From Azospirillum formosense (lineage in GTDB: Bacteria; Pseudomonadota; Alphaproteobacteria; Azospirillales; Azospirillaceae), in contig NZ_CP159404.1 of assembly GCF_040500525.1 (NCBI RefSeq), positions 277,001-341,000 on the forward strand: a stretch of DNA of 64,000 bases, written 5' to 3'. The notes under the pieces were generated by a model that saw only the letters and a list, made by a program, of their open reading frames with translations, had not been told where the DNA came from and did not search any database. The position numbers were made by a program, and so were the translations under genes. Every line of letters starts with the position of its first letter. Position 1 is the first letter of the stretch. Positions 42,192-57,518 of the stretch are shown one piece after another.

Positions 42192-42675
42192 TGCCCTTGG
42201 TGGAGAGCGGGAAGGCCACGGCCTGCGTCGCGCCATAGGGGCGGACGGCGATCTGCGCGGCCTTGGAGCGGCGCAGCGCGGTCAGCGTCGCCTCGTCCAT
42301 CGGGGCGTTGGCGAGGCAGCCGTCCTGGATGCACTGCTGGTAGGTCAGCGGCAGTGGCTTTCCGTCGTCGATGGTCAGCGCCGCCCCGGCGCGCAGATCG
42401 ACGCCCAGCGGCAGGATCACCACCATCACCCCCTTGCCGTCGGGGGCGAAATAGCCCACCGACGCCTTGAGGATGCGGGTCGCCTGCTTGGCCTCCTTGT
42501 TCTCCATCACGCGGGTCTGCGACAGGAAGCAGCGCGGCTTGCCGTCGGGGGGCGTCTCGCATTCGGTCTGCCAGTCGCCGAAGGTCTTGCCCGGCTCCAC
42601 CGCGACCGCGGGGGTTCCGCCGGCAAGGAGGAGGGGGAGCGCCGCCAGCGCTCCCGTGATGATGGCCTTGCGCAT
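42160..42675 (-). CDS. Invasion-associated locus B (IalB) family protein
   Basis: This exported protein has 171 residues from the ATG at 42675. The signal peptide is MRKAIITGALAALPLLLAGG. KTFGDWQTECET..PRCFLSQTRV and TYQQCIQDGCLAN carry the four cysteines expected to form two disulfides. The longer frame to 42702 overlaps the autotransporter gene end. IalB-like proteins of free-living alphaproteobacteria have no agreed function. It lies just after the autotransporter on the same strand. Confidence 0.87.
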   Translation of the reverse strand: MRKAIITGALAALPLLLAGGTPAVAVEPGKTFGDWQTECETPPDGKPRCFLSQTRVMENKEAKQATRILKASVGYFAPDGKGVMVVILPLGVDLRAGAALTIDDGKPLPLTYQQCIQDGCLANAPMDEATLTALRRSKAAQIAVRPYGATQAVAFPLSTKGITDGLSALKP

Positions 42676-42689
42676 CGCCGTTCCGGTTC

Positions 42690-45600
42690 TCACAGCTTCC
42701 ATTTCAGGCCGGCGGTCGCCGACAGGGTGTTTTCGCGGGCGCGGATCGCGTCCTGGACGCCGATGGTGGCGGTCAGGCGATCGTCCAGAGCCACGCCCAG
42801 CCCGGCGCCGACCACCAGGGCGTCGCGCCCCGGCTTGCTGGCGTCGGCGGTGAAGGCCACCCCGCCCAGACGGTTGGTGGTCGAGGCCGTGGCGTCGGCG
42901 AAGTCATGCTCCCACGCCAGGGCGGCGCTGGGCAGCAGGCGCCAGCCGCCCACGGTCACGCTGGTGCCGGCGCGCACGCCGACGGCGCTGCGCAGGCTGG
43001 TCCAGCCCGCCGCCTCGACGTCCAGCGCCACGCCGCCGCCGGACTCGCGGAAGGATTCCCGGGTGATGCGGTCGAAGCGCAGGCCAGCCCGCGGCTCGAT
43101 CCAGGCGCTGTCCGACCCGGCGAAGGCCATGCGGTGCCCGGCGGCGATCTCAGCGGAGAAATCGTGACCGTCGGCGCTGCCGCTGGCCCCCTGGCCCAGC
43201 GTGCCGAAGGCGATGCCGCGCGAGGCGTCGTAGTTTGCGTAGCCGTAACCGATGGCGCCCTCGACGAAGGGGCTGTCCGCCGTGCCGCGCAGGCTCCAGG
43301 AGCCGTAGAGAGTCGCCTGGTAGCTGTCCACGTCGGCCTTGCCCAGCCCGTCGCGCGAGGTGACGCGGTTGCGCAGGTAGCCCAGCGCCACGCCGCCGCT
43401 CACGCCGTTCTCGTAGCTGTGGTCGGCGCCCAGCAGGAAACCGCCGATGCGCTCGGTGGTGCCGGCGGCGTTGCCGTCCGAGCCGGTCCGGCTGTAGGCC
43501 GCCAGCGGCTGGCCCCACACGCCGCCCGCCCCGCGGGCCTCACCGGTTTCGCCCACGGCGCTCGTGCTGTTGCCGCCGCCGGCCAGCCGGACGCCGGTGG
43601 AGGATGCCTCGCCGCCGCGCAGGGCCGAGAGGCGGCCTTCCACCGCGCTGCCGAACAGGCGGCGGCTGGTGCGGTCGGCGGCCAGCGTGTCGGCGTGCAG
43701 CTTGCCCGAGAGCTGGTCGAGCGCGCCGGCGATGCCGCTGCCCGGCAGGCCGTAGAGGCCGCTGAACAGCGGGGCGGCGACGCCCTCCAGCCGCGCCCCG
43801 GCGGCCGGGCGCAGCGCGTCCACCGCCGCGCCGGCGGCCCGCTGGTTGCGGGTGCCGCCGCGGACCGCGTAGTTGGTCGGCGTGACCACCAGCCGGACGG
43901 CGGTGGCGTCGTAGAGCGTGTCGAAGCGGGTGCCGGTCTCCAGCCCCGCCGCCGGCTGCGTCACGGCGGCGAAGCCGCCGGTCACGCCGCCGTCCGCCTG
44001 GACGATGGTGAAGCTCTGCCCCAGCGTGGCGGTGTAGGCGTTGGTCGCGTCGCCGCTGATGCCGCGAAGCACCGGAGCCAGCGTGCCGGCGGCGGCGAAG
44101 GACGCCCCCTGCACCCGGATCTGGTCGTGGCGGCCGGCGCCGAAGCCGGCGGTCGGGCCGTCGATCTCGGCGTTCAGGACGCTGGTGGCGGTCAGGGTCA
44201 CCGGGGACTGGAAGGTCAGCACGCCCGGCGAATTGCCCGGCGACACGGCGCCGGCCAGCGTGGCCGGACCGCGGACGGTGCCGCCGCCGCTGAAGGCCGA
44301 ACCGGCGCTGGTGGTCAGCGCGCCGGAGACCACGCCGTTCACGGTCGCCGAACCGCCGTTCCCCAGGTTGACCGCGCCGGTGATGCCGGTGGCGGCCACG
44401 GTGACGGTGCCGTCGTTCACCGTGACCGGGGCCATGACGGCGCCGGCCAGGGTGGCGCTGCCGCCGGAGGTCACGGTGACCGCGCCGTTGACCGCGCCGT
44501 AGGCGGCGACGGTCAGGGTGCCGCCGTTCACCGCCAGCGTGCCGCCGACGCCGCCGCCCTCGACGACGGTCATCGCGCCGCCGCGGGCCACCGTCACCGG
44601 GACGGCCACGACGCCGCCGACCGTGGCGCTGCCGCCGTTGTTCAAGGCCAGCGTGCCGCCCGCGACCACGCCGCTGCTGGCGATGGTCAGCGCCGCTCCG
44701 TCGCTCACCGACAGGCCGCCGGCGTTGGCGAGCTGGCCGGAGACGACCACCGCGCCGGGGCCGGACGCGGCCAGCGCGCCGCTGCCGCCGACGGCGCCCG
44801 CCAGAGTGACGGTGCTGCCGTTGGGGGCGATGGTGCCGCCTTGGCTGGTCACGGTCACCGATTGGCCGACGGTCAGCGGCGAGGCCGGGCGCAGCGTGCC
44901 GCCGTCGAAAGTGACCGAGCTGCCCTGGACCGCGCCATCGCTGTTGGTGAAGCTGGGGCGGCTGGTGTCGATCACGCCGGTCGGCGGAGGCGGAGGCGGA
45001 GGCGTTGGGGTGGGCGTGGGCGTGGGATCGGGATTCGGCGCCGGGCCGGGATCAGGATTCGGGCCGGGATTCGGGTTGGGATTCGGGCCGGGATCGGGGT
45101 CGGGCGGCGGCGTCACCTTGGTCAGGGTGAGCAGAATTTCCTTGCCCGCCGTGTCGAAGGTGGCCGTTGGGGTCAGCGTCGCGTCGCTGCCGGTGATCGT
45201 GGTGAAGGCGCCGGACACCCCGCCCGCGGCCGTTACGATGGTGTAGGTCGTGCTGTCGCCGTAGCCGCTGCCGGTGGAGGTCACGGACAGGTCGCCGCCG
45301 ATCGTGGCGGTGCCGGTGACGGCCAGCTTGCTGGCCGCCGAAGACGTCGTCCGGATGGCCAGGGTGCTGCCGCTCTGCTGCGTGTAATTGCCGGTGACCG
45401 TCAGGGTGCCGGGCGCGCCGGAGCCGCCGGGCGTCACGGTCGTGCCGGACGGGGTGGTCACGTTGCCGACGACCGTTCCGGTGCCCGTCAGCGTCGTTCC
45501 GCTGCTGAGCTGCAACCCGGTGGTGAGGGAGCCGTTGACGCGCAGCGTGCCGGCCTGAAGGTTCGTGATGGTGGCCGAACTCGCGCCGCCCAGCGTCCAC

Positions 45601-46508
45601 TCGGTTCCGTTCATGTTGAGGGTGGTCAGGCCGGACACCGGACCGGACAGGGTGCCCCCCCCCTCCAGCAGCATGACCTGGTTGGCGCCCGAGGCTTGGA
45701 TGCCGCCGGCTACCAAGCTGCCGTCCTTGAGATTGATGAGGCTGCCGGCCCCGATGCCGAAGGTCTTGATCGCGCTGAAACCGTTTCCAGCGGCGATGGT
45801 GCCGTGATTGACGATGGTCGACGGGCCGTTGACCAACAGCGCGTCGCCAGTGCCGATGATCGTGCCGTAGTTGGTGACGGTGGACTGCTTGGTAATGGAG
45901 GCGGCTGAGACCGCCGCGTAATCCGTCTGCATGAACTCCGTCGCCGGCCGCACGTTTTTGATCAGCGCGGTGCTGTTCGACGGGGACCCGTTGGTGAGGA
46001 CGAGGGCGTGGGAGCTTTCAATGGCAGACCAATTGCCGATGATCGTTCCGGTGTTCTCGATGACCGAGGTCAGCGAGCCCGCGGAGTTGGCCAGGAGGAT
46101 GCCGTGGTAGGTCTTCGGCACCGAGATCAATCCAGAATTGATGATGGTGCCGTAGGTTTGAGCGTAGATGCCGTCGGCCTGATAGAAGTTCGTCTCGACC
46201 GAAATCTTGATCGTGCCCTGGTTGGTCAGGGTCCATCCGCCGGGCGACTGGACCCACACGCCGGTGGTCAGGTCGGTGGACAGGTTGCCGGTGCCGCTGT
46301 CGACCACGCCGCCGGTGCTGGTGATGAGAATGTTCCCGGTGGTCGGATAGAAGGTCTCGTTCTGGATGGCGGTCAGCGTGGAAATCGGCGCCGCGTTCGC
46401 GGCCAGCGAGACGCCGAGCGCGATGGGGGCTGCGACCATCGCCGGCAGGCGCCCGCCCGACATCAGGCTTTGGCGGATCGACTCGAGGGGAGACGGCGAC
46501 GGCGGCAT
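42690..46508 (-). CDS. Autotransporter with beta-helical passenger and C-terminal beta-barrel
   Basis: This outer-membrane protein has about 1272 residues from the ATG at 46508, which has an AAGGTGA-type ribosome-binding site. The signal peptide ends near ALGVSLAANAA. Residues about 40-460 are a Ser/Thr/Gly/Asn-rich beta-helix (NYGTIIGTGDALLVNGPSTI). A Pro/Asp/Asn linker (PDPDPGPNPNPNPG) follows at about 465-515. Further GG-x-T/V repeats and a 12-strand autotransporter barrel (about 1000-1272, GLKWKL end) complete it. It probably acts in adhesion or aggregation. No peptidase motif is seen in the passenger. Confidence 0.9.
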   Translation of the reverse strand: MPPSPSPLESIRQSLMSGGRLPAMVAAPIALGVSLAANAAPISTLTAIQNETFYPTTGNILITSTGGVVDSGTGNLSTDLTTGVWVQSPGGWTLTNQGTIKISVETNFYQADGIYAQTYGTIINSGLISVPKTYHGILLANSAGSLTSVIENTGTIIGNWSAIESSHALVLTNGSPSNSTALIKNVRPATEFMQTDYAAVSAASITKQSTVTNYGTIIGTGDALLVNGPSTIVNHGTIAAGNGFSAIKTFGIGAGSLINLKDGSLVAGGIQASGANQVMLLEGGGTLSGPVSGLTTLNMNGTEWTLGGASSATITNLQAGTLRVNGSLTTGLQLSSGTTLTGTGTVVGNVTTPSGTTVTPGGSGAPGTLTVTGNYTQQSGSTLAIRTTSSAASKLAVTGTATIGGDLSVTSTGSGYGDSTTYTIVTAAGGVSGAFTTITGSDATLTPTATFDTAGKEILLTLTKVTPPPDPDPGPNPNPNPGPNPDPGPAPNPDPTPTPTPTPPPPPPPTGVIDTSRPSFTNSDGAVQGSSVTFDGGTLRPASPLTVGQSVTVTSQGGTIAPNGSTVTLAGAVGGSGALAASGPGAVVVSGQLANAGGLSVSDGAALTIASSGVVAGGTLALNNGGSATVGGVVAVPVTVARGGAMTVVEGGGVGGTLAVNGGTLTVAAYGAVNGAVTVTSGGSATLAGAVMAPVTVNDGTVTVAATGITGAVNLGNGGSATVNGVVSGALTTSAGSAFSGGGTVRGPATLAGAVSPGNSPGVLTFQSPVTLTATSVLNAEIDGPTAGFGAGRHDQIRVQGASFAAAGTLAPVLRGISGDATNAYTATLGQSFTIVQADGGVTGGFAAVTQPAAGLETGTRFDTLYDATAVRLVVTPTNYAVRGGTRNQRAAGAAVDALRPAAGARLEGVAAPLFSGLYGLPGSGIAGALDQLSGKLHADTLAADRTSRRLFGSAVEGRLSALRGGEASSTGVRLAGGGNSTSAVGETGEARGAGGVWGQPLAAYSRTGSDGNAAGTTERIGGFLLGADHSYENGVSGGVALGYLRNRVTSRDGLGKADVDSYQATLYGSWSLRGTADSPFVEGAIGYGYANYDASRGIAFGTLGQGASGSADGHDFSAEIAAGHRMAFAGSDSAWIEPRAGLRFDRITRESFRESGGGVALDVEAAGWTSLRSAVGVRAGTSVTVGGWRLLPSAALAWEHDFADATASTTNRLGGVAFTADASKPGRDALVVGAGLGVALDDRLTATIGVQDAIRARENTLSATAGLKWKL

Positions 46509-46910
46509 GGGCGATTCACCTTGCGAGCGGGGCGTAAGCGTTACGACCAATGGTTTACACCGCTTGATCATAACGGGCGTGCCGCACTGCCGCCAAGACA
46601 AAACGCATAATAATATAAAAAATCACAACTCAAATGTTATATAATCGTGTTGATCTCATCAAAAATCAGCTGATGAGTTCTCGATTGCTTATGAAGTGAT
46701 GGGAAACGGGGACGAGTTTTTGTGAAAATTGAAGCGGGCGGTGCCGCGATATTCAACAAGTTGGGGTTTTGCCGATTAATGGCTTAGGGAATGCCCGGAT
46801 TTGAAAATGCAGCAATTTGTCAAAGGGCGTGTTCCCGGCGGCCCGCAACTCCGCCGCCGCCACGACAATGTGGCATTTTCCCGCGCCGGAGGTTAACGGG
46901 CGAAGCGGCG
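46509..46910. other. Intergenic AT-rich region upstream of the autotransporter
   Basis: This stretch of about 400 bp has no supported gene. The part at 46590-46780 is markedly AT-rich for this genome (for example ATAATATAAAAAATCACAAC) and contains the small inverted repeat CTCATCA..TGATGAG near 46660. It probably carries the leftward autotransporter promoter. Confidence 0.4.
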
Positions 46911-46952
46911 CCGGCCCGGCGGTCGTCGCATCCTGACGGACCGCCGGGCCGG
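46911..46952 (-). terminator. Strong hairpin after osmC (possible terminator)
   Basis: CCGGCCCGGCGGTC (46911-46924) pairs with GACCGCCGGGCCGG (46939-46952) as a perfect 14-bp stem with a 14-nt loop, starting 6 nt after the osmC stop. There is no U-tract, so termination would be weak or factor-assisted. Confidence 0.45.
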
Positions 46953-46958
46953 ACGCGA

Positions 46959-47384
46959 TCAAAGAAGCCTGGCGTTCAGGCTGATCTCCGTTCCGGCCAG
47001 GGCCTTGGACACCGGGCAGTTCTTCTTCGCGCCTTCGGCCTGCTGCTGGAAGGTCGCGGCGTCGATCCCCGGGATCTCCGCCTCGCAATCCAGTTCGATT
47101 TTGGTGATGGCGAACCCGTCGCCGGCCTTGTCGAGGTGGACGCGGGCGGTGGTGTGCACGCGCGTCGGCGTGTGCCCGGCCTTCGACAGGCCGGCGGACA
47201 GCGCCATGGAGAAGCAGCCGGCGTGAGCGGCGGCGATCAGCTCCTCCGGGTTGGTGCCGGTGCCATTCTCGAAACGCGACGGAAAGGAGTAGGCGCCTTC
47301 GAACGCGCCGCTGCCCAGCCGCATGGTTCCCGCGCCCTGCGCGAGGTTGCCGCGCCATTCCGCATCCGATTGCCGCACAGCCAT
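46959..47384 (-). CDS. osmC: OsmC-family organic hydroperoxide reductase
   Basis: This 141-residue cytoplasmic peroxiredoxin-like protein reduces organic hydroperoxides. The two reactive cysteines are present: C57 (AAAHAGCFSMALSAGL) and C123 (GAKKNCPVSKALAG), the OsmC/YhfA spacing. NPEELIAAAHAGCF is the diagnostic motif. It is a single gene with its own 218-bp upstream spacer shared with the divergent ACP gene. Confidence 0.92.
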   Translation of the reverse strand: MAVRQSDAEWRGNLAQGAGTMRLGSGAFEGAYSFPSRFENGTGTNPEELIAAAHAGCFSMALSAGLSKAGHTPTRVHTTARVHLDKAGDGFAITKIELDCEAEIPGIDAATFQQQAEGAKKNCPVSKALAGTEISLNARLL

Positions 47385-47602
47385 GGTGATCTCCCGATCC
47401 TGTGATGGTTGGATGAACCGGCGCTCAAGTTAGAGCCGACCGGGGGAACGGCAATCGCCACAGGTGTTAAGCACGAGGAGCGGTTGGCATCCGAAAGGCA
47501 CCCGAGGCATACGGAAAAGCAGAGGAAGGCGCAGAACAATTAAGGTTTTGTGGCGTTGTGCCGGGATTGGAAAAGCCAGAGGTTGAATAGGGGGTAAGGG
47601 GA
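47385..47602. promoter_or_regulatory. Divergent control region between osmC and the ACP operon
   Basis: This 218-bp spacer between divergent starts must carry both promoters. GGGGTAAGGGG lies just upstream of the ACP ATG. No recognised operator was identified. Confidence 0.3.
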
Positions 47603-47938
47603 ATGAGCATGCGCCAACCGGATTGGCAGATCGCGGCTGGATCGGCGCCGCGGGGCGGCGATGCCCCGGCGGTCGACACGGCCGACATCCGGGTGCTTCT
47701 CGCCGACAGCGGCTGGCTGGCCACCGACGCCTCCACCCTGTCCGACGAGGACGATCTCTACGCCGCCGGGCTGACCTCCCACGGGTCGGTGAACCTGATG
47801 CTGGCGTTGGAGGAGCGCTACGGCGTCGAATTCCCGGAGAATCTGCTGCGCCGCCGCACCTTCGAGAGCATCGCGGCGATCCGAGCCGCGGTGGCCGGTC
47901 TGCTGGACGGCGCGCCGGGCGGGACGGGGGCCGGATGA
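47603..47938 (+). CDS. Acyl-carrier-protein-like carrier for the amino acid:carrier-protein ligase
   Basis: This is a 111-residue carrier protein with an N-terminal extension of about 25 residues before the ACP fold. The phosphopantetheine site is S59 in DLYAAGLTSHGSVNLMLALE, with TSH instead of the usual DSL, as in carriers that accept amino acids. EERYGVEFPENLLRRRTFES is helix III of the ACP fold. It is the first gene of the ligase cluster and overlaps the next ATG by 4 nt (ATGA). Confidence 0.87.
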   Translation: MSMRQPDWQIAAGSAPRGGDAPAVDTADIRVLLADSGWLATDASTLSDEDDLYAAGLTSHGSVNLMLALEERYGVEFPENLLRRRTFESIAAIRAAVAGLLDGAPGGTGAG

Positions 47939-49122
47939 GGGCGGCCGTGCCGGACGGCCCGGCGGCGATGCCGCCGGAGGGCGCCGCGGGGGTCGCCGCC
48001 GTCGCCGGGCGCCATGCCGACAGCGTCGACCGCGAGGCGCGCTTTCCCGTTGAGGCCTTCGCCGCCCTGAGGGAGGCGCGGCTGCTCGGCCTGATGGTGC
48101 CGCGGGATTTCGGCGGCGGCGGCGGCGGTCTGGCCGACGCGGCGGCCGTGGCCCATGCGCTGGCCCAGAAATGCCCGTCCAGCGGGCTGATCTACGCCAT
48201 GCACCAGATCCAGGTGGCCTGCCTCGTCCGCCACGGCCAGGTCAGCGCGTGGCATCGCGGCTTTCTGGAGCGGCTGGCCGGGGAGCAGCTTCTGCTCGCC
48301 TCCGCCACCACCGAGGCCGGGATCGGCGGCGACGTCCGCTCCAGCGCCTGCGCGGTGGGTGACGAGCCGGGTGGCGCTTTCCGGCTGGAGAAGCAGGCGA
48401 CGGTCATCTCCTACGGGGCTCAGGCCGACGCGATCCTGGTGACGGCGCGGCGCTCGGCGGACTCGCCGCCCTCCGATCAGGTCATCGTGCCGGTTCTGCG
48501 TGGGCAGACGCAACTGGAGGAGATCGGCGGCTGGGACACGCTGGGCATGCGGGGCACCCACAGCGTCGGCTACCGGCTGGTGGCCGAGGCCGGGCGGGAG
48601 CAGATCCTGCCGCTGCCCTACGCCGACATCTCCGCCCGCACCATGCTGCCGGTGACCCACATCCTGTGGAGCAGCGTCTGGCTCGGCATCGCGACGGACG
48701 CGGTGGCGCGGGCCGCCGCCTTCATCCGGGCGGAGGCGCGCAAGCGCCCCGGCACCCCGCCGCCGGGGGCGCGGCGGCTGGCCGAGGCGACCGCGGGGCT
48801 TCAGAGCATGCGCGGCATGGTGCGCGGCGCGCTTGCCCGGTTCGAAGAGGTGGCGGACGACCCCGACCGTCTCACCGCCCCGGGATTCGCCGTCGCCATG
48901 AACACGCTGAAGACGGAGGCGGCGGAGACGGTGCTGCGGATCGTGGGGCAGGCGATGCTGGCCGGCGGCTTGGCCGCTTACCGCAACGACAGCCCCTACA
49001 GCCTGTGCCGCCATCTGCGCGACGCCCACTCGGCGCCGCTGATGATCAACAACGACCGGATCCTGGGCAACACGGCGAATCTGCTGCTGGCGCACAGGGA
49101 CAACGGCTCTCTCTTCGGCTGA
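47935..49122 (+). CDS. Acyl-CoA dehydrogenase family protein
   Basis: This 395-residue flavoprotein fold has [40 protein letters not shown] and a C-terminal helical domain ([20 protein letters not shown]) that resembles the DszC/nitroalkane-oxidase-type branch. In this cluster it may act on a carrier-bound amino acid or acyl group rather than on a CoA ester; this is inference from neighbours. The gene is coupled to the ACP gene and separated from the ligase by 23 nt. Confidence 0.85.
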
Positions 49123-49145
49123 GGCATTTTCGGAACGGAACGCGG

Positions 49146-50084
49146 ATGGACATGCGGGCAGAGGGCACACCGGTGGAAAACGGGCAGGCGGCGTTCCGCG
49201 ACGCGCTGGTCGCGGCCGGGCTGCTGATCCCCACGGGGGTCGACGGGCTGTACGGCCGCAGCGGCGTCTTCGAGGACGTCGTGGAGCGCTTCAACGACCT
49301 GATCACCACCTGGGGCGGCGCCGACGGGGCGGACGTCATGCGTTTTCCCCCGGGGGTGGCCCGCCACCAGTTCGAGCAGAGCGGCTATCTGAAGAGCTTT
49401 CCGCACCTTGCCGGCACCGTCCACGCCTTCAAGGGCGACGAGCGCGCCCACCAGTCCCTGCTGCGCCGGCTGGAGGAGGGGGAGGAGTGGACCGACGCCC
49501 AGATGGCGACCAACGTCGTCCTGACCCCCGCCGCCTGTTACCCCGTCTACCCGACCATCGCGGAGCGCGGGCCGCTGCCCGCCGAAGGCGCGCTGGTCGA
49601 TGTCTATTCCTACTGCTTCCGCCATGAGCCGTCCCTGGACCCGGCGCGGATGCAGCTGTTCCGGATGCGCGAGTATGTGCGCGCCGGCACGCCGGAGCAG
49701 GTGATGGAGTTCCGGCAGCGCTGGGTGGAGCGGGGGCGGGCGCTGATGGAATCGCTGGCCTTGCCGGTCGCCGTCGATCTGGCGAGCGACCCTTTCTTCG
49801 GGCGGGCCGGCCGCATGCTGGCGGCCAGCCAGCGCGACCAGGGGCTGAAGTTCGAGCTGCTGATCCCCATCGCCTCGGCGGAACGGCCGACCGCCTGCCT
49901 CAGCTTCAATTACCATCAGGACCATTTCGGGCTGCTGTGGGATCTGCGGACGCCGGACGGCGCGGTCGCCCACACGGCCTGCGTCGGCTTCGGGATGGAG
50001 CGGGTGGCGCTGGCGCTGTTCCGCCATCACGGCCTGGACGCGAAGGCGTGGCCCGCCGCGGTGCGCGCCGTCCTGTGGGGCTGA
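49146..50084 (+). CDS. Amino acid--[carrier protein] ligase (SerRS-like, lacks tRNA-binding domain)
   Basis: This 312-residue class-II-synthetase-like enzyme is thought to adenylate a small amino acid (Gly or Ala) and load it onto the phosphopantetheine of a carrier protein. Residues C131 ([10 protein letters not shown]), E176 (RMREYVRAG) and C279 ([15 protein letters not shown]) fall exactly where the Bradyrhizobium enzyme coordinates its active-site zinc. Motif 2 is about [20 protein letters not shown] and motif 3 is [13 protein letters not shown]. No N-terminal tRNA-binding arm is present. The carrier gene lies two genes upstream. Confidence 0.93.
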
Positions 50085-50104
50085 GCGGGCAGGGGAGGCC
50101 GGGC

Positions 50105-51007
50105 ATGGCGCATCCGCTCGACAGGCCGGACCGCGACTGGGCGGAGACCAACTGCTACACCGACCTGTGGCTCGGGCTGCTGCGGGCGCTGGGGATGGAG
50201 CCGATGGCGGCCCTGGCCTTCACCGTCGCACAGGATTTCGAAGGCGACCAGTTCACCTTCTTCAAGGCGCCGCCGGAAGACCTGCGCCGGCTCTATGGGC
50301 TGGAGGTGCAGGAACTCGCCCTCTACGACCGTGTGGAAACCCACGCGGCGGTGCAGGTGGCGCGCGGCCGTCTCGTGCTGGTGGAGGTGGACGGCTATCA
50401 TCTGCCGGACACCCGCGGCACCTCCTACCGCGCGCAGCACGTCAAGACGACCATCGCGATCCTCGGCATGGACGCGGGCGCGCGGCGGCTCGATTACATC
50501 CACAACGCCGGGCGCTTCACGCTGGAGGGGGAGGATTACGACGCTCTGTTCGCCCCGGCGCCGCTGTTCCCCTACGTGGAGTTCGTGAAGCGCAGCGGTC
50601 AGGCCTTGCAGGGAGAGCCTTTGATGGAAGCGTCCCGCGCCCTGCTGTCCGATCATCTGCGCCGCCGTCCGGCGGGCAACCCCATCGCCGCCTTCCGTGC
50701 CGCGTTGCCGGAGCATCTGGAAATCCTGGCGGCCCGGCCGATGGACTACTTCCATCTCTACGCCTTCAACACGCTGCGGCAGGTGGGGGCGAACTTCGAG
50801 CTTCTCGGCATGTACGCGCGCTGGATCGGCGGGCCGGCCGACGCGGCGGAGGCCTGCGCCACCCTCTCCGCCACCGCCAAGGCGCTCCAGTTCCAGCTCG
50901 CGCGCGGCGTGCACCGGCGGCGCTTCGGCGATCACGCCGAGCCGCTGGAGGCGATGGAGCGCGCCTATGACCGCGCGCTTGGCGCGCTGGTCCGCCGTTG
51001 CGGGTGA
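50105..51007 (+). CDS. DUF1839 family protein
   Basis: This is a 300-residue protein. The family is regularly found next to amino acid:carrier-protein ligases and has been suggested to accept or process the aminoacyl group. NCYTDLWLGLLRALGMEPMA, VEVDGYHLPDTRGTSYRAQH and YIHNAGRFTLEGEDYDALF are clear family segments. No signal peptide is present. The mechanism is unknown. It follows the ligase by 20 nt. Confidence 0.88.
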   Translation: MAHPLDRPDRDWAETNCYTDLWLGLLRALGMEPMAALAFTVAQDFEGDQFTFFKAPPEDLRRLYGLEVQELALYDRVETHAAVQVARGRLVLVEVDGYHLPDTRGTSYRAQHVKTTIAILGMDAGARRLDYIHNAGRFTLEGEDYDALFAPAPLFPYVEFVKRSGQALQGEPLMEASRALLSDHLRRRPAGNPIAAFRAALPEHLEILAARPMDYFHLYAFNTLRQVGANFELLGMYARWIGGPADAAEACATLSATAKALQFQLARGVHRRRFGDHAEPLEAMERAYDRALGALVRRCG

Positions 51008-51013
51008 CGGAGG

Positions 51014-53455
51014 ATGGCGCGCCTTCACGCCGTGACGGGCCGCAGCGTGACTTCCCTGTCCACGGGGTGGGAGCTGTGCGTGACCGAACCGGGGGCGGTG
51101 CCCGGCGGCGATTGGCTGCCCGCCCCGGTGCCGGGCACCGTCGCCCAGGCGCTGCGCGAGGCCGGGCTCTACCGGCTGGGTGACCCGCTTCCCCTGCACG
51201 ACCGCGATGTCTGGTACCGCTTGCGGCTGACCGGTGAGGGGCCCTGCACGCTGCGCTTCCACGGTCTCGCCACCGTCGCGGAGGTCTGGCTGGACGGGAA
51301 GCGCATCCTGAGTAGCGCCAGCATGTTCCAGCGCCACGACGTTCCGGTGACGCTGCGCGGGACGCACGCGCTGCGCCTCGTCTTCCGCGCCTTGAATCCG
51401 GTGCTGAAGGCGCAGAGGGGCCGGGGGCGCTGGCCGGTCCGGCTCGCCGGGCCGGCGGGGCTGCGTGCGGTGCGGACGACGCTGCTCGGCCACATGCCCG
51501 GCTGGTGCCCGCCGGTGGCGGCGGTCGGCCCCTGGCGTCCGGTCGAGCTGATCACGGAATCCGGACCGCTGCGCGTCCGCTCGGCGGATCTGCGCGCCAC
51601 GCTGGAAGGGCGGGACGGCCGCTTGTCCCTGGCTCTGGCGGTGGAGTGGAGCGGCTCCGCCCAGCCGCCGGGCTGGCTGGAGGTGGGCGCGGCGCGGACG
51701 CCCCTCCGCTGGGCCGGGCCGGGGGAGCTGCGCGGCGATCTCCGCCTGCCGGAGGTCGCGCCCTGGTGGCCGCACAGCCACGGCAGCCCGACGCTCCACA
51801 CGGTGCGCGCGGCGGTCGGCGACGCCCGCATCGATTTGGGCCGCACCGGCTTCCGCCGCGTCGAGCGTGAGCCCGGCGACGGCTTCGCCCTGCGCGTCAA
51901 CGGGGAGCGCGTCTTCTGCCGGGGGGCCTGCTGGAGCAGCCCCGACATCGTCGCCTTGCCGGGGACGCGCGAGGCCTACGCACCTTGGCTGGAGACGGCG
52001 CGGCAGGCCGGCATGACCATGCTGCGGGTGCCGGGCATCGCCGTGTACGAGGCCGACGCCTTCTTCGACCTGTGTGACGAGATGGGGATTCTCGTCTGGC
52101 AGGATTTCATGTTCGCCAACTTCGACTATCCCGCCGACGAGCCGTTCCTTGACGCCGCCCGGCGGGAGGCGGCGCAGTTCCTCGACCGGGTCCAGGCCTC
52201 GCCGTCGCTGGCCGTGCTGTGCGGCGGCAGCGAGGCGGAGCAGCAGGCGGCCATGCTCGGCCTGCCGCGCGAGCGCTGGAGCCAGCCGCTGTTCGACAGC
52301 GTCCTGCGGGACGAGGCGGAGCGGGGGCGGCCCGACGTGCCCTATGTGGCCAACTCCCCGACCGGCGGGCCGCTGCCCTTCGCCGCCGACGCCGGGGTGA
52401 CCCATTACTACGGCGTCGGCGCCTATCTGCGCCCGCTGGAGGACGCGCGCCGGGCGGCGGTGCGCTTCGCCTCCGAATGCCTCGCCTTTGCCAACATGCC
52501 GGCGGCGGGCGCGCTGCCCGGCGTGCCGGCGGTCCACGACCCGCGCTGGAAGGCGCGCGTGCCGCGCGACCCCGGCGCCCCCTGGGATTTCGAGGATGTG
52601 CGGGACCACTATCTGCGGACGCTGCACGGCGTCGAGCCCATGGTCCTGCGCTACGAGGACCCCGACCGCTACGCGCGGCTGTCGCGCGCGGTGACGGGGG
52701 AGGTGATGGAGGCCGTCTTCGCGGAGTGGCGGCGCACCGGCTCGTCCTGCGCGGGCGGGCTGGTCTGGATGTTCCAGGACGTCTGGCCGGGGGCCGGCTG
52801 GGGCGTGGTCGATTCCGCGGGCGTGCCGAAGGCGGCGTGGCACGCGCTGCGCCGCGCCTTCCGGCCGGTGCAGGTCCTGCTGACCGACGAGGGGGTGAAC
52901 GGGCTGGCGGTCCATCTGCTGAACGAGACGGCGGAGCCGGTGGAGGCGGTGCTGACCCTGACCGCCCTGCGGCGGGGCGAAGTGCCGGTGCTGCGGGCCG
53001 AGCGGGCGGTTGTCCTGCCGCCGCGCAGCGCCCAGACCCTTCCGGCGGCTTCGCTGTCCGATCGCTTTTTCGACCTGACCGGCGCCTACCGCTTCGGCCC
53101 GCCGGCGCACGACGCGGTGGTGGCGGCGCTGTCCGACCCGCGGTCCGACGCCCTGGTGGCCGACGCTTTCCATTTTCGCGACGGCGGGCGGATGGAGCGG
53201 GCGGAACTGGGGCTGGACGCCCGCCTGGAGCGGACGGAGGAGGGGTGGGCGCTGATCCTGTCCAGCCGGCGGCTCGCCCGCTCCGTCCATGTCGAGGATG
53301 ACGGGTTCCGGCCGGAGGAGGAGTGGTTCCATCTGCCGCCGGGAGGGGAGCGCCGGGTCCGGCTGATCCCGCGCCACCCTGGCGCCGCGGTGCCCGATGG
53401 CGAGGTCCACGCGTTGAACGCCCTGGAACCGGCGCGCTACCGGGGGGCCGCATGA
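51014..53455 (+). CDS. Glycoside hydrolase family 2-like protein (beta-mannosidase type)
   Basis: This 813-residue protein has the GH2 architecture. An N-terminal jelly roll spans about 20-170 (WYRLRLTGEGPCTLRFHGLA, VAEVWLDGKRIL), and an immunoglobulin-like segment about 175-270. A TIM barrel spans about 285-600 (CWSSPDIVALPGTREAYAPW, LVWQDFMFANFDYPADEPFL). The nucleophile is probably E488 (RFASECLAFANMP). The acid/base E407 lies in CGGSEAEQQ, where most clan-A enzymes have Asn directly before the Glu. There is no signal peptide, so a cytoplasmic role in this cluster is suggested. Confidence 0.85.
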   Translation: MARLHAVTGRSVTSLSTGWELCVTEPGAVPGGDWLPAPVPGTVAQALREAGLYRLGDPLPLHDRDVWYRLRLTGEGPCTLRFHGLATVAEVWLDGKRILSSASMFQRHDVPVTLRGTHALRLVFRALNPVLKAQRGRGRWPVRLAGPAGLRAVRTTLLGHMPGWCPPVAAVGPWRPVELITESGPLRVRSADLRATLEGRDGRLSLALAVEWSGSAQPPGWLEVGAARTPLRWAGPGELRGDLRLPEVAPWWPHSHGSPTLHTVRAAVGDARIDLGRTGFRRVEREPGDGFALRVNGERVFCRGACWSSPDIVALPGTREAYAPWLETARQAGMTMLRVPGIAVYEADAFFDLCDEMGILVWQDFMFANFDYPADEPFLDAARREAAQFLDRVQASPSLAVLCGGSEAEQQAAMLGLPRERWSQPLFDSVLRDEAERGRPDVPYVANSPTGGPLPFAADAGVTHYYGVGAYLRPLEDARRAAVRFASECLAFANMPAAGALPGVPAVHDPRWKARVPRDPGAPWDFEDVRDHYLRTLHGVEPMVLRYEDPDRYARLSRAVTGEVMEAVFAEWRRTGSSCAGGLVWMFQDVWPGAGWGVVDSAGVPKAAWHALRRAFRPVQVLLTDEGVNGLAVHLLNETAEPVEAVLTLTALRRGEVPVLRAERAVVLPPRSAQTLPAASLSDRFFDLTGAYRFGPPAHDAVVAALSDPRSDALVADAFHFRDGGRMERAELGLDARLERTEEGWALILSSRRLARSVHVEDDGFRPEEEWFHLPPGGERRVRLIPRHPGAAVPDGEVHALNALEPARYRGAA

Positions 53456-55263
53456 CACCCGATGCTCCCGCACCCGTCCTGTTCGAGGGATGCTTCGGCT
53501 GGCTGCACCCGGCGGCCGGACGACGCGGTGTCGTGCTGTGCGCCCCCTATGGCGCGGAGGCGCTGGCCACCCATCGGCCGTGGCGTGCCTTCGCCCAGGC
53601 TCTGGCCGAGGCCGGGCTGCCGGTCCTGCGCTTCGATTATCCCGGCACCGGGAACAGCGCCGGGGACGAGGGCGATCCGGCCCGGCTGGAGGCATGGCAG
53701 GCCGGCATCCGCGCCGCCGCCGGCCATCTGCGTGCCGTCGCGGGAGTGGAGGAGGTGGCTCTGGTGGGGTTGCGGCTCGGCGGGCTGCTCGCGGCGGCGG
53801 CGGCGCGCGCGGCGGCGGCGGACGCCCTGGTCCTGCTGTCCCCCTTCCCGTCGGGCCGAGCCTTCCTCCAGGAGCTGCGGGCGGTGGCGCTGCTCGCCGA
53901 GCGTCCGGCGGACGCCCCGCCGGCGGTCGGGCCGGAGGGAATCGACAGCGCCGGCTTCCGCCTCTCCCCGGAGGCGGCGGAGGCATTGCGGGAACTGGAC
54001 CTTGCGCGCGTGACCGAGGCGCCGGCGCCGCGCGTGCTGATCCTCGACCGTCCGGAGGGCCGCGCCGCCGCCGTGGCGGAGCGGTTCCGCGCGCTGGGGG
54101 CGGCCGTGGAGGAGACGCCCTTCCCCGATCACGCGCGGCTGATGACCAGCGTCCAGCACGCCGCTGCGGACTGTTCGGCCTTCGCGCGGGTGGCGGAATG
54201 GCTGTCGTCGGATTTGGCGCCCGCCGGGACGGCCACGACCGCGCCGCCGTCCGATCCCCGTCTGCGCCTTGCCGGAGCGGTGGAGCGCCCGCTCCGCTTC
54301 GGCCCCGGCGCCGGCCTGTTCGGCATCCTCTGCGAGCCCGTCGCCGCTGCGGAGGGGCCCGCCGTTCTGCTGCTGAACAGCGGCGCCACGCCGCACACCG
54401 GCACCGGGCGCATGTCGGTGCGGCTGGCCCGCCGGCTGGCGGCGCGGGGGATCGCCTCCCTGCGCCTGGACCTGGGCGGGCTCGGCGACAGCGCGTCGAA
54501 GCCGGGGCGCCGCGACGGGCTGATCTATTGCCGGGACATGGTGGAGGACGCGCGGGCCGGGCTGGACGCCTTGGTGGCGGCGGGGCATGGCACCGCGGTC
54601 GCCGTGGGGCTGTGCGCCGGGGCGGCGGTGGCGCTGCACGTCGCGTTGGCCGACCCGCGGGTGGTCGGGCTGGCGCTGGTCAATCCGGGCCGCTTCGTTC
54701 TGGGGGACGGGGTGACGCAGGAGGAGGCCATCGGCAGCGCCGTGAAGCCGGCCGCCGCCTATCTTCCCCGGCTGACCGAGCCGGCGGTGTGGCGGGCCAT
54801 CCTGCGCCAGGACCGCAAGGCGTCGCGCGTCGTCCGCGGCCTGTCGGAGCGGGCGGCCCGCCGCCTGCGCATCGGGGCCGGGCGGCTGCGCGCCGGGCTG
54901 ATGGGACGGGGCTACGCGCGGGATGACGTGCTCCACGCCTTCCAGGCGCTGTCCGACCGCGAAGTCCGCACGCTGATGGTGCACAGCGAAGGTGACGTGA
55001 CGCTGGGCGAATTGGAGGCGCAGGCCGGGGTGGACGGCGGGCGGTTGCGCCGGATGGCCGGCCTGTGGATGGAGCGGCTTGCCGGGGCCGATCACAGCCT
55101 GATGGAGCGCGCCGCGCGGGAGCACTTCGCCGAACTGCTGGATGAACTGCTCGACCGCATCGGCACGGGCGCGACGGGAGCCGTGCGCGGGCAGGGCCCC
55201 GGCCCACCGGAAGGGACCGGGGCTCTCCGCGTCAATCACGCGACGGGAAATAGCCCAGCATGA
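53452..55263 (+). CDS. Tandem alpha/beta hydrolase with Arg and Cys at the two nucleophile elbows
   Basis: This 603-residue protein has two alpha/beta-hydrolase-like halves, about 1-260 and 275-590. The first has DYPGTGNSAGDEGDPARLEA and the elbow GLRLGG with R108 where Ser is usual. The second has LDLGGLGDSASKPGRRDGLI and the elbow GLCAG with C388. The layout resembles the two exosortase-associated hydrolases joined in one chain. Its ATG overlaps the GH2 stop by 4 nt, and its end overlaps the convergent tail-collar gene. It may release or transfer the carrier-bound product (inference). Confidence 0.82.
   Translation: MTPDAPAPVLFEGCFGWLHPAAGRRGVVLCAPYGAEALATHRPWRAFAQALAEAGLPVLRFDYPGTGNSAGDEGDPARLEAWQAGIRAAAGHLRAVAGVEEVALVGLRLGGLLAAAAARAAAADALVLLSPFPSGRAFLQELRAVALLAERPADAPPAVGPEGIDSAGFRLSPEAAEALRELDLARVTEAPAPRVLILDRPEGRAAAVAERFRALGAAVEETPFPDHARLMTSVQHAAADCSAFARVAEWLSSDLAPAGTATTAPPSDPRLRLAGAVERPLRFGPGAGLFGILCEPVAAAEGPAVLLLNSGATPHTGTGRMSVRLARRLAARGIASLRLDLGGLGDSASKPGRRDGLIYCRDMVEDARAGLDALVAAGHGTAVAVGLCAGAAVALHVALADPRVVGLALVNPGRFVLGDGVTQEEAIGSAVKPAAAYLPRLTEPAVWRAILRQDRKASRVVRGLSERAARRLRIGAGRLRAGLMGRGYARDDVLHAFQALSDREVRTLMVHSEGDVTLGELEAQAGVDGGRLRRMAGLWMERLAGADHSLMERAAREHFAELLDELLDRIGTGATGAVRGQGPGPPEGTGALRVNHATGNSPA
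55196..55223 (-). terminator. Hairpin after the tail-collar gene (weak terminator candidate)
   Basis: GCCCCGG (55196-55202) and CCGGGGC (55217-55223) form a 7-bp stem starting 8 nt after the minus-strand stop at 55232. There is no U-tract. It lies inside the 3' end of the plus-strand hydrolase gene. Confidence 0.3.
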
Positions 55264-55918
55264 AGATGAAGAAGAACAGCGACTGGTAAGGCTGCAGGTT
55301 GTTGAGGGCGACCGGGGTGGAAACGACACCACCACCCGGGCTCACCGCCACGGTGGCACCCGTGGGACCGCCGCTGACCGTGCCCTGGGAGGAAAGCGCG
55401 CCGGTCAGCGAGCTTCCGGTGGGCGGCGTCGGCAGGCTGGAGGCCGGGATGTAGGGGCCGTCGAGGACAACGTCGTAGCTGGGGTCGATGAACTGTCCAC
55501 CCAGCACCGCGGGAATGGCGGACGGGATGTTGCTGGTGCCGGCGGCGGGGTTCAGCGGGACGGTGACCGTCGCGTTGAACGGCACGGTGCCGCCTGCGCT
55601 GCCGCCCTGGAAGGCGGCGCCGTGGGTGTGCGCCGGCAGATTGTTGCCGGTGATCGTCGTGAACTGCGCTCCGCCCGCATTCCCGGTGTTGATCGTGCTG
55701 CTGGTGTAGGGGCTGGTCCCCGGTCCCACCATCACGCGGCCGCGAAGGTCCGGCAGGTTGAACGTCGAGTTGTTTGGCCCGCTGCCGAAGGCCCCGGCCG
55801 TGATCGCCCATAGGGCTTGGTACTGGCTCGAGTTGACAGCTTGTCCCAGGCATTGCTGCGTGTTCACGGGGGCGAAGTTGCCGGCGAATGGAAAGACGGA
55901 CCCTATGTAGAAATCCAT
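55232..55918 (-). CDS. Phage tail-collar domain protein (microcystin-dependent protein family)
   Basis: This 228-residue protein begins MDFYIGSVFPFAGNFAP and has the collar motif FNLPDLRGRVMVGPGTSPY. NLPAHTHGAAF carries the conserved H-x-H typical of metal-binding collar tips. It closely resembles the protein at 56424. The two flank a small DUF6916-like gene, a common three-gene set in bacteria without nearby phage genes. No capsid or tail-tube gene is seen here, so it is not obviously a prophage remnant. Function unresolved. Confidence 0.9.
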   Translation of the reverse strand: MDFYIGSVFPFAGNFAPVNTQQCLGQAVNSSQYQALWAITAGAFGSGPNNSTFNLPDLRGRVMVGPGTSPYTSSTINTGNAGGAQFTTITGNNLPAHTHGAAFQGGSAGGTVPFNATVTVPLNPAAGTSNIPSAIPAVLGGQFIDPSYDVVLDGPYIPASSLPTPPTGSSLTGALSSQGTVSGGPTGATVAVSPGGGVVSTPVALNNLQPYQSLFFFIFMLGYFPSRD

Positions 55919-55993
55919 GGCGAATTCTCCGGTGGAATCGATGCGCTGGGACGGACGGTGCGCGGTGCCGCGACGGCGCCGGACGGCCGTGGC

Positions 55994-56314
55994 TCAGTTC
56001 AGGATCAGTTCGAAGCAGCCCCGCTCGGGGTCGCGCGGAATGACCCGCACAATGTAGAAAGGTCCCAGCGGTCCCATCGTCGGATGGTCGATCTGGTAAT
56101 TGCCGTTCCACAACTGGCTGGGGCCGTAGGTTTCGAAGAGGGCCGAAAAGGACGTGCGCTTTGCCCAGCGCGGCGTGCATTCCGGACGCGGCGTCACCTT
56201 CGTCAGCTCGACGTCCGTGATCACGGACCCGTCCTCCGGGGCCACGAAACGGAACGTCTGGCCGAGATGAGGGGCGAACATCTCGTGAGAGATGGTGGCG
56301 ATGTCGATGGTCAT
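55994..56314 (-). CDS. DUF6916-like small protein
   Basis: This 106-residue protein starts ATISHEMFAPHLGQTFRFVA and has QLWNGNYQIDHPTMGPLGPF and a PRDPERGCFELILN end. It matches the small protein (DUF6916, number from memory) that accompanies tail-collar proteins of the microcystin-dependent type. No transmembrane segment or signal is seen. It lies between the two collar paralogues on the same strand. Confidence 0.8.
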   Translation of the reverse strand: MTIDIATISHEMFAPHLGQTFRFVAPEDGSVITDVELTKVTPRPECTPRWAKRTSFSALFETYGPSQLWNGNYQIDHPTMGPLGPFYIVRVIPRDPERGCFELILN

Positions 56315-56423
56315 CTCAAAGGTCCAGGCTCAAATTCTGAAAGTACGGCTGTCGTTCCGGGTGTGCCAAGCCAACGCGCCGCATCCGTCCATCCAATGTT
56401 CGACGATCGGGTTCGACCCCGGA

Positions 56424-57095
56424 TCAGTCGCGCATCGGGAAGATGCCGCTGGTGACGATCAGCATGGTCAGCGCCAGATAGGGCTGCATGTTGTTCAGCG
56501 GAGACGGGTTGGTGACGCCGCCGCCCGCCGAAATGCTCACCGAGCCGGTCAGCCCGCCCAGCGTGACGGTGCCGCTGGCCGAGCCGACGAGCGCCGAGCC
56601 GTTCGGCGCGGTGCCGGAGCTGTAGGGGCCGTCCAAGGTGACGCCAACGCCGCCGGAATCGTTGAGCTGGAACGCGCCGAGATAGTTGTTTCCGCCCACC
56701 GGGGTGCTGCTGGCGCCGACGACGGTGCTCACCGGGATGGCCGCGGCGGCGGAGACGGTCGCGCTGGTGCTGCTGCCGGACGGCGTGAAGGTCGCGGCGT
56801 GCGTGTGCGCCGGCAGATTCTGCACGGTGATCGTGTTGTTCGCGACGCCGCCGAAGTTCCCCGGATTGAGCGACTGGTTGTTGAGGTAGGGGCTGGTGCC
56901 CGAACCGACCATCACGCGGCCGCGCAGGTCCGGGAGGTTGAAGTTGGTCGAGCCGTTGCCGCCGTACATCGCGCCGGTGACCGCGAACAGCGCCTGGTTC
57001 TGGCTGACCTGCATCTGCTGTCCCAGGCACTGTGCCGTGTACTGGGGGGCGTAGGCGCCGGTGAACGGGAAAATCAGGCCGAGGTAAACTTCCAT
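56424..57095 (-). CDS. Phage tail-collar domain protein, second paralogue
   Basis: This 223-residue protein begins MEVYLGLIFPFTGAYAPQYT. It shares QCLGQ, the FNLPDLRGRVMVGSGTSPYL motif and LPAHTHAATF with the protein at 55232 but differs in the central Ser/Ala/Gly/Val-rich part. It is probably the first gene of the three-gene minus-strand set, with a good upstream ribosome-binding site (GGAGGTATCACC). Confidence 0.9.
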   Translation of the reverse strand: MEVYLGLIFPFTGAYAPQYTAQCLGQQMQVSQNQALFAVTGAMYGGNGSTNFNLPDLRGRVMVGSGTSPYLNNQSLNPGNFGGVANNTITVQNLPAHTHAATFTPSGSSTSATVSAAAAIPVSTVVGASSTPVGGNNYLGAFQLNDSGGVGVTLDGPYSSGTAPNGSALVGSASGTVTLGGLTGSVSISAGGGVTNPSPLNNMQPYLALTMLIVTSGIFPMRD

Positions 57096-57518
57096 GGTGA
57101 TACCTCCTGTGAATGAAACCGGTTATGGCGGCTCGTGGCCAGCGTCCCCTTAAAGACGTGCCGCGCCGCCGAATGTGATAGAAAGCATACTGGTATATTC
57201 TCCTGAACGGCTAGGGCGGGAGCAATAGGCGATACAAAAAGTTACTTTCTCCGACCGTAATCTTTGCGGAACGACCCTCTGGTTGCATATCCTTGTATGT
57301 TATTGACCGGCCCCGGCGGGTCGGGAGCCTGCCACGGGTGGTTCGCCTGGGGTATTGACCCATCGCCGACCATGTCCGAACCGCACCGGACCGACGCCGA
57401 AGCGGGCGACTCGCGCTGTGCGCGCGGCCGCGATGGTCCTGAACGGCGATTCTTGCGTTGGGCTCGCATCTTCGGCTATTCAGAACCTGCGCTTGCGCTA
57501 CCGGAAAGGGTGTGGCCG
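57096..57518. promoter_or_regulatory. Divergent region between the collar gene set and the GNAT gene
   Basis: This spacer of about 420 bp is AT-richer near 57170-57300. It probably contains the leftward promoter of the collar set (AT-rich TATAT near 57190-57200) and a rightward promoter for the GNAT gene. The rightward frame open from 57264 has no ribosome-binding site, so I treat 57264-57518 as non-coding. Confidence 0.35.

Follow-up and report, generated by a model that had tools for sequence, protein, structure and literature searches.

What does a bacterium make with an amino acid:carrier protein ligase that is encoded together with a glycoside hydrolase-like protein and a double hydrolase? 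The question is raised by six plus-strand open frames, confirmed at 47603–55263 of a 64,000-nucleotide stretch of Azospirillum formosense DNA (the window; G000:C3:277001–341000, within a 6.1-Mb genome). In order, they encode a stand-alone acyl carrier protein (ACP), an acyl-CoA dehydrogenase (ACAD)-like flavoprotein, the ligase, a DUF1839 protein, a GH2 β-mannosidase-like protein, and a tandem α/β hydrolase. Our answer, to which we give roughly even chances, is that the six genes form one cytoplasmic conjugation pathway, in which an aminoacyl group would be transferred from the carrier to an amine, probably that of a sugar in polysaccharide or glycoconjugate assembly.

The distribution of the genes was assessed in a phylum sample of 398 genomes, own genome included. 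The ligase was found over its cutoff in 28 of these; 16 more genomes, with matches at E-values up to 0.001 that lay under the ligase cutoff, were dropped as distant paralogues. DUF1839 occurred in 16 genomes and a GH2 orthologue of at least 739 bits likewise in 16, the next match reaching 172 bits (GH2 matches at E-values up to 1e-30 were present in 30 genomes, with at most two candidates per genome scored). Comparison of the lists by hand showed that the DUF1839 and GH2 sets are the same 16 genomes, all inside the 28 ligase-positive ones. The full-length tandem hydrolase (at least 176 bits) is present in all 16 and in none of the 12 ligase-only genomes, six of which have partial matches, and an ACAD gene lies beside the ligase in all 12 ligase-only loci. 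The system therefore has a core, consisting of carrier, ACAD, and ligase, and a co-inherited trio, consisting of DUF1839, GH2, and the fused tandem hydrolase, and the strict co-occurrence of this trio defines the pathway. An earlier interpretation of the window, made from its letters (the sequence-only reading), had proposed a comparison of gene neighborhoods and named adjacency of the GH2 and hydrolase genes in this genome only as an outcome that would speak against a common pathway. The comparison showed the two genes to be co-conserved beyond the Azospirillum genome, both occurring in one set of 16 genomes among the 398, so that this objection does not hold.

Gene order was followed in named loci, namely the best 80 of 414 ligase relatives, a selection that is biased to close relatives. 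The order ACP–ACAD–ligase–DUF1839–GH2 is found in 24 of 24 Azospirillum loci and in 45 of 56 others, where the 56 include an Azospirillum-like locus named Roseomonas and some loci are cut by contig ends. The hydrolase comes directly next in 23 of the 24 and in 16 of the 56 (one of them Azospirillum-like), and all six genes stand together in 23 and 14 loci, respectively. Hence, the view that the GH2 and hydrolase genes are locked into the same operon describes Azospirillum well, but elsewhere the hydrolase is in place in 16 of 56 loci. Genera among these best 80 include Bosea, Methylobacterium, Pannonibacter, and Mesorhizobium, along with two Myxococcaceae metagenome-assembled genomes (MAGs) and one Steroidobacter MAG. 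Gene calling missed some genes; the hydrolase of L208, for example, was found only by tblastn. In seven genomes, the query ligase has no GH2 gene next to it (L126, L127, L128, L131, L157, L161, and L175); the orthologue was located elsewhere in every case (708–1152 bits) and its stretch also carries the hydrolase, which follows GH2 directly in five and lies upstream of a run of ACAD–DUF1839–GH2 in two. The L161 genome contains a further complete set, including a separate ligase (L210). What is conserved is thus the presence of the genes in one genome, and not in every case their adjacency. In the genus as a whole, 39 of 45 genomes, counting the window's own, have the ligase, as against none of 15 other genomes of the same family. 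The nearest named loci are from Azospirillum brasilense (ligase 97% identical), and on plasmid p2 of A. brasilense MTCC4039 all six genes recur, flanked by the same OsmC and tail-fiber neighbors. All six genes, in this order and with an acyltransferase gene added, are also found in the betaproteobacterium Mycetohabitans rhizoxinica. Chance adjacency was rejected on the basis of the identical 16-genome sets and the unchanged gene order in this betaproteobacterium.

The strongest clue to the chemistry comes from the DUF1839 protein (50105..51007, plus strand; PF08893, 397 bits). A model built from 42 sequences, with a predicted local distance difference test score (pLDDT) of 93.7, was compared with known structures, and AziU2/U3 and CtaG took the top Foldseek ranks. 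VIA-align gave Z 18.5 for CcbD (7yn2_B; 275 residues, 3.6 Å), 18.4 for CtaG, and 17.6 for AziU2/U3, in each case over nearly the whole chain; these three enzymes account for 14 rows with Z 18.5 to 16.9, followed by a drop to 7.6 for unrelated structures. CcbD, CtaG, and AziU2/U3 are papain-like enzymes of carrier-bound substrates, and the match of the modeled DUF1839 fold to them is new relative to the one paper in the literature searched that mentions DUF1839. This papain survey (PMC10318531) already groups DUF1839 as papain-like and guesses glycan processing from context, and the words CcbD and closthioamide are absent from its main text.

Residue conservation was counted in alignments for which a length filter kept 85 of 87 ACP, 111 of 111 ACAD, 98 of 99 DUF1839, 88 of 92 GH2, and 68 of 76 hydrolase sequences; some loci represent one strain obtained via two collections (e.g., L100/L103), and hence not all rows are independent. 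In DUF1839, Cys17 (50153–50155) and His112 are each kept in 97 of 98 sequences and His133 in all 98, and position 115 (Thr in the window) is Thr or Ser in 97. The starts of the aligned ranges, which are not a residue-level superposition, place Cys17 near Cys11 of CtaG and Cys19 of CcbD. According to PMC12945683, CcbD works with Cys-His-Glu: proline is moved from its carrier to the Cys of the enzyme and from there to a thiooctose amino group. By analogy with this joining of proline to an amino sugar, Cys17 of DUF1839 may receive an aminoacyl group and hand it on to an amine. The fold makes DUF1839 the likely conjugating enzyme, and fold and linkage together suggest transfer to an amine; the conjugation step mentioned in the sequence-only reading would thus have its candidate, and the CcbD-like fold gives the DUF1839 gene a specific, assayable predicted activity.

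A close parallel would be the lincosamide synthetase (CcbC/LmbC, a carrier, and CcbD/LmbD), in which, according to PMC4351081 and PMC12945683, one amino acid is likewise activated on a carrier and condensation is carried out by a papain-like enzyme with the CcbD fold. The two systems differ in that activation in the window would be carried out by a class II synthetase-like ligase, whereas the lincosamide system uses an A-domain of the nonribosomal peptide synthetase (NRPS) type. Further differences are the other catalytic triad reported for DUF1839, the addition of GH2 and the hydrolase, and the fact that no amino-sugar genes were recognized in the window operon.

DUF1839 genes also occur in other settings. 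Conjugative plasmid p3 of Rhizobium sp. NZLR1 carries one (L240:11932–12918) with no ligase or carrier within 12 kb, a ParB-like gene on one side, and tra genes further on, and Rhizobium leguminosarum plasmids have DUF1839 matches too. Second DUF1839 copies near the hydrolase and a Wzz-type gene were seen in two related genomes, G349 and G422 (L215:1–15000 and L217:1–20000).

An aminoacyl group for such a transfer would be supplied by the ligase (49146..50084, plus strand) and the carrier (47603..47938, plus strand). The ligase scores 518.3 bits against NF005479 (cutoff 357) and is closest to the solved Bll0957 structure (4h2w, E 2.3e-99; 3mey, E 2.9e-97). The zinc ligands C131, E176, and C279, described as intact in the sequence-only reading, are indeed present and align with identical residues of 4h2w, a solved ligase of the Bll0957 type. 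The protein has 312 residues and matches the class II core only; no tRNA-binding domain was seen in it, and a route of aminoacyl-tRNA transfer was set aside for this reason. The ACP, encoded by a separate gene two genes upstream, matches PF00550 (29.8 bits, cutoff 20.8) and NF005480 (92.8, cutoff 72). It was correctly recognized earlier as a carrier of the TSH type, carrying a G-L-T-S-H motif whose phosphopantetheine Ser59 (47777–47779) is found in 85 of 85 aligned carriers. The family assignment and the separate carrier gene in the operon point to the ligase/carrier pathway already proposed, in which the ligase, by the known chemistry of its family, would adenylate a small amino acid and load it onto the phosphopantetheine arm of the holo-carrier. 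We take this amino acid to be probably Gly or Ala, as with Bll0957 and Atu2573. The ligases of Bradyrhizobium (Bll0957) and Agrobacterium (Atu2573) belong to the same family, NF005479; at the present locus, the core is joined by DUF1839, GH2, and the tandem hydrolase, which are lacking in 12 of the 28 ligase genomes sampled. PMC9437257 lists Gly, Ala, and Ser for ligases of this type and describes the biological role of the family as unknown. If our reading holds for many Proteobacteria, it would provide the role that has so far been missing for DUF1839-linked amino acid:carrier protein ligases, and with it a non-NRPS, tRNA-independent route for putting amino acids on bacterial glycans.

The flavoprotein gene (47935..49122, plus strand; PF02771/PF00441) bears on a different explanation, the one favored by the sequence-only reading, in which the flavoprotein dehydrogenates or otherwise oxidizes the carrier-bound amino acid and the hydrolases release the oxidized product. 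The fold is that of an acyl-CoA dehydrogenase, as judged from a model (pLDDT 89.8) and structure comparison, and ACAD is the most constant partner of the ligase, as seen in the 12 ligase-only loci. The catalytic Glu is lacking. The column of Ile371 aligns with the Glu of the Y-E-G motif in 8i4p, the base position of MCAD, and is Ile or Val in 109 of 111 sequences; Glu occurs in two only, from the distant paralogue loci L093 and L094. The IVD Glu position, which we placed by eye, is presumably Thr241, and none of the 111 sequences has Glu there. Dehydrogenation of a carrier-bound substrate is weakened because neither known base position holds a catalytic Glu in the clade of the window protein. 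Fold comparison failed to settle the chemistry: the nitrososynthase DnmZ is the best PDB match to the single sequence, dehydrogenases lead when the profile is used, and in structure comparison little or nothing separates dehydrogenases from flavin monooxygenases. One of the top folds in this tie is ColB1, which is titled as a dehydrogenase acting on assembly-line-tethered cysteine and fits the oxidation model; other flavin chemistry, such as N- or C-oxygenation, fits equally well. In Bradyrhizobium, bll0958, annotated as an acyl-CoA dehydrogenase, adjoins bll0957 in a likeness to the ACAD and ligase genes of the window, and PMC10888616 gives both bll0957 and bll0958 (acd) a fold change of 3.0 in a phaR mutant versus wild type. 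Oxidation of the carrier-bound amino acid would still leave DUF1839 and GH2 unexplained, and we regard it as improbable as the purpose of the operon; in the conjugation pathway, the flavoprotein would act on the carrier-bound or the conjugated amino acid. Loci L093 and L094, from two genomes of the window's genus, have a distant ligase paralogue near an ACAD gene that keeps the catalytic Glu.

The GH2-like protein (51014..53455, plus strand; PF22666, 54.6 bits) aligns with β-mannosidases across most of its length (5n6u, E 7.9e-52). Glu407 (52232–52234) and Glu488 (52475–52477), which we take to be the catalytic pair, are kept in 88 of 88 sequences and align with Glu residues of 2je8. An Asn before the acid/base Glu is a feature of GH2 β-mannosidases and is found in 2je8; 87 of the 88 sequences have Ser at this position (Ser406). 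Hence, the window protein shares the length-wide similarity and both Glu with GH2 β-mannosidases but differs in this Asn-to-Ser change, and no signal peptide was seen in it; its activity may be changed. Membership in a hydrolase family with both catalytic Glu kept would suit a catabolic or housekeeping role, in which imported aminoacyl-glycosides are broken down and the ligase–carrier pair recycles the amino acid, and some Azospirillum loci have a GH1 gene and a gene for an SbmA/BacA-like transporter upstream. We consider such a role very improbable, as carrier loading costs ATP, which is typical of biosynthesis, and no uptake system is kept across genera among that part of the neighbor clusters that was annotated.

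The last gene (53452..55263, plus strand) encodes two hydrolase halves that resemble exosortase-associated hydrolases 2 and 1 (hydr2 and hydr1), with 102.5 bits against TIGR03101 (cutoff 202.75) and 127.3 bits against TIGR03100 (cutoff 168.45), both under cutoff. "Double hydrolase", as it had been called, is apt for the two halves and for the Cys triad of the second, but the first half lacks a nucleophile, position 108 being Arg in 47 and Gly in 21 of 68 sequences. In the second half, all 68 sequences have Cys388 (54613–54615); D515 and H548 are each kept in 67 of 68, with a gap in the other row. This set of Cys, Asp, and His recurs in 10 of 10 over-cutoff exosortase hydrolase 1 loci from 249 genomes, and an elbow Arg in both of two over-cutoff hydrolase 2 loci. 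The protein therefore looks like a fusion of this type of pair, and a 620-codon hydr2–hydr1 frame with the same domain order occurs in another family (L254/L271; G220:C5:658527–660230). One exosortase locus, that of G116, has hydr2 and hydr1 side by side with genes for a ligase and a carrier. The resemblance to XrtA/PEP-CTERM loci thus extends to the Arg of hydr2 and the Cys elbow of hydr1; the differences are that the two ligases belong to different superfamilies and that the window hydrolase is under both hydrolase cutoffs. Membership in the exosortase A system was rejected: none of the 28 ligase genomes has an exosortase over the TIGR02602 cutoff, with one weak match. For this reason, the operon is, by these profile searches, better described as a system parallel to the exosortase A loci than as a member of them.

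The neighbors of the hydrolase, together with the GH2 fold, are the reason for proposing a sugar acceptor and polysaccharide assembly. Loci of the Bosea type have genes for a GT4 glycosyltransferase, a Wzz-like protein, a flippase, GH5, and an acyltransferase around the operon or the hydrolase. Pfam searches, with places matched by hand, put Wzz or Polysacc_synt_3 no further than 10 kb from the hydrolase in 11 of the 16 genomes (G138, G201, G285, G343, G347, G349, G356, G401, G418, G422, and G476). Gene numbers and genome sizes would lead one to expect about 0.48 of 16 (tail 4e-14, a value that ignores genome kinship). A BLAST scan with seven representatives, which found 8 of 16 genomes and 0 of 20 control stretches chosen by us from the same genomes, was under-sensitive and was replaced by the Pfam searches. 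Among the other named loci, BLAST found GT4, Wzz, or flippase genes at 21 of 55. At L063:2509–5817 and L064:14206–17514, one 1103-codon frame combines a Polysacc_synt_3 flippase domain with both hydrolase halves, the second half in L063 scoring just under its Pfam cutoff. The β-mannosidase-like protein and the Cys-triad hydrolase may process or pass on the glycoconjugate before or around export, as the final steps in the presumed order.

Several observations weigh against this reading. Wzz and Polysacc_synt_3 are not within 10 kb of the hydrolase in five of the 16 genomes (G000, G124, G237, G291, and G359), and BLAST found GT4, Wzz, and flippase genes near none of 25 Azospirillum-type loci, window included, and Wzz also at 3 of 12 ligase-only loci. 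No gene for making the acceptor was recognized in the operon. A ligase-only genome, G429, has adjacent half-matches to the hydrolase (C1:1694277–1695600; 80 and 68 bits) that look like an unfused hydrolase pair without DUF1839, and therefore hydrolases of this type extend beyond the 16 genomes. For DUF1839 itself, sequence and profile searches of the PDB gave no relative, and PMC10318531 gives it a C-(T/S)-H triad, unlike the Cys-His-Glu of CcbD.

The product may instead be small and diffusible, either an aminoacylated glycoside or a short amide of the lincosamide type; its precursor would be trimmed by the GH2-like protein and the hydrolase. In Azospirillum, the operon is isolated, its surroundings lacking polysaccharide genes. 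CcbD, the closest fold to DUF1839, belongs to an antibiotic pathway, as do CtaG and AziU2/U3, which serve carrier-linked steps of closthioamide and azinomycin biosynthesis; this counts for a small molecule. Such a product would not account for the hydrolase lying beside flippase or Wzz genes in 11 genomes and being joined in one frame to a flippase domain in two, and broad conservation across genera seems more like that of a cell-surface trait. We therefore hold a small molecule to be unlikely, though still worth serious consideration, and return to aminoacylation of a sugar in polysaccharide or glycoconjugate assembly. A broader form of this proposal, that in many Proteobacteria a dedicated system of ligase, carrier, and CcbD-like transferase (DUF1839) serves to attach an amino acid to a sugar of an exported polysaccharide, is put forward tentatively, at somewhat less than even chances. 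If the polysaccharide link is true, it would account for a trait of surface chemistry in bacteria that live in soil and with plants, among them Azospirillum and Bosea.

In a crude hydropathy scan, no obvious signal peptide or membrane helix was seen in the six proteins, and the hydrolase alone reached 2.16. The genes were described earlier as running head to tail with overlaps. There are six genes, but 4-bp overlaps occur at only two of the five junctions (ACP/ACAD and GH2/hydrolase), and the remaining three are gaps of 23, 20, and 6 bp. No promoter-like site was seen, terminator-like sites numbered one versus 2.0 expected, and Rfam gave no match at 46000–57500. A tail-collar gene that converges on the hydrolase gene (55232–55918, minus strand) overlaps it at the stop. 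This tail-collar gene is part of a minus-strand group at 55232–57095, in which a DUF6916 gene lies between two tail-collar-domain genes; the group converges on the operon, with a 32-bp overlap with the hydrolase gene. Upstream of the operon, a large autotransporter gene adjoins an IalB-like gene on the minus strand (42160–46601).

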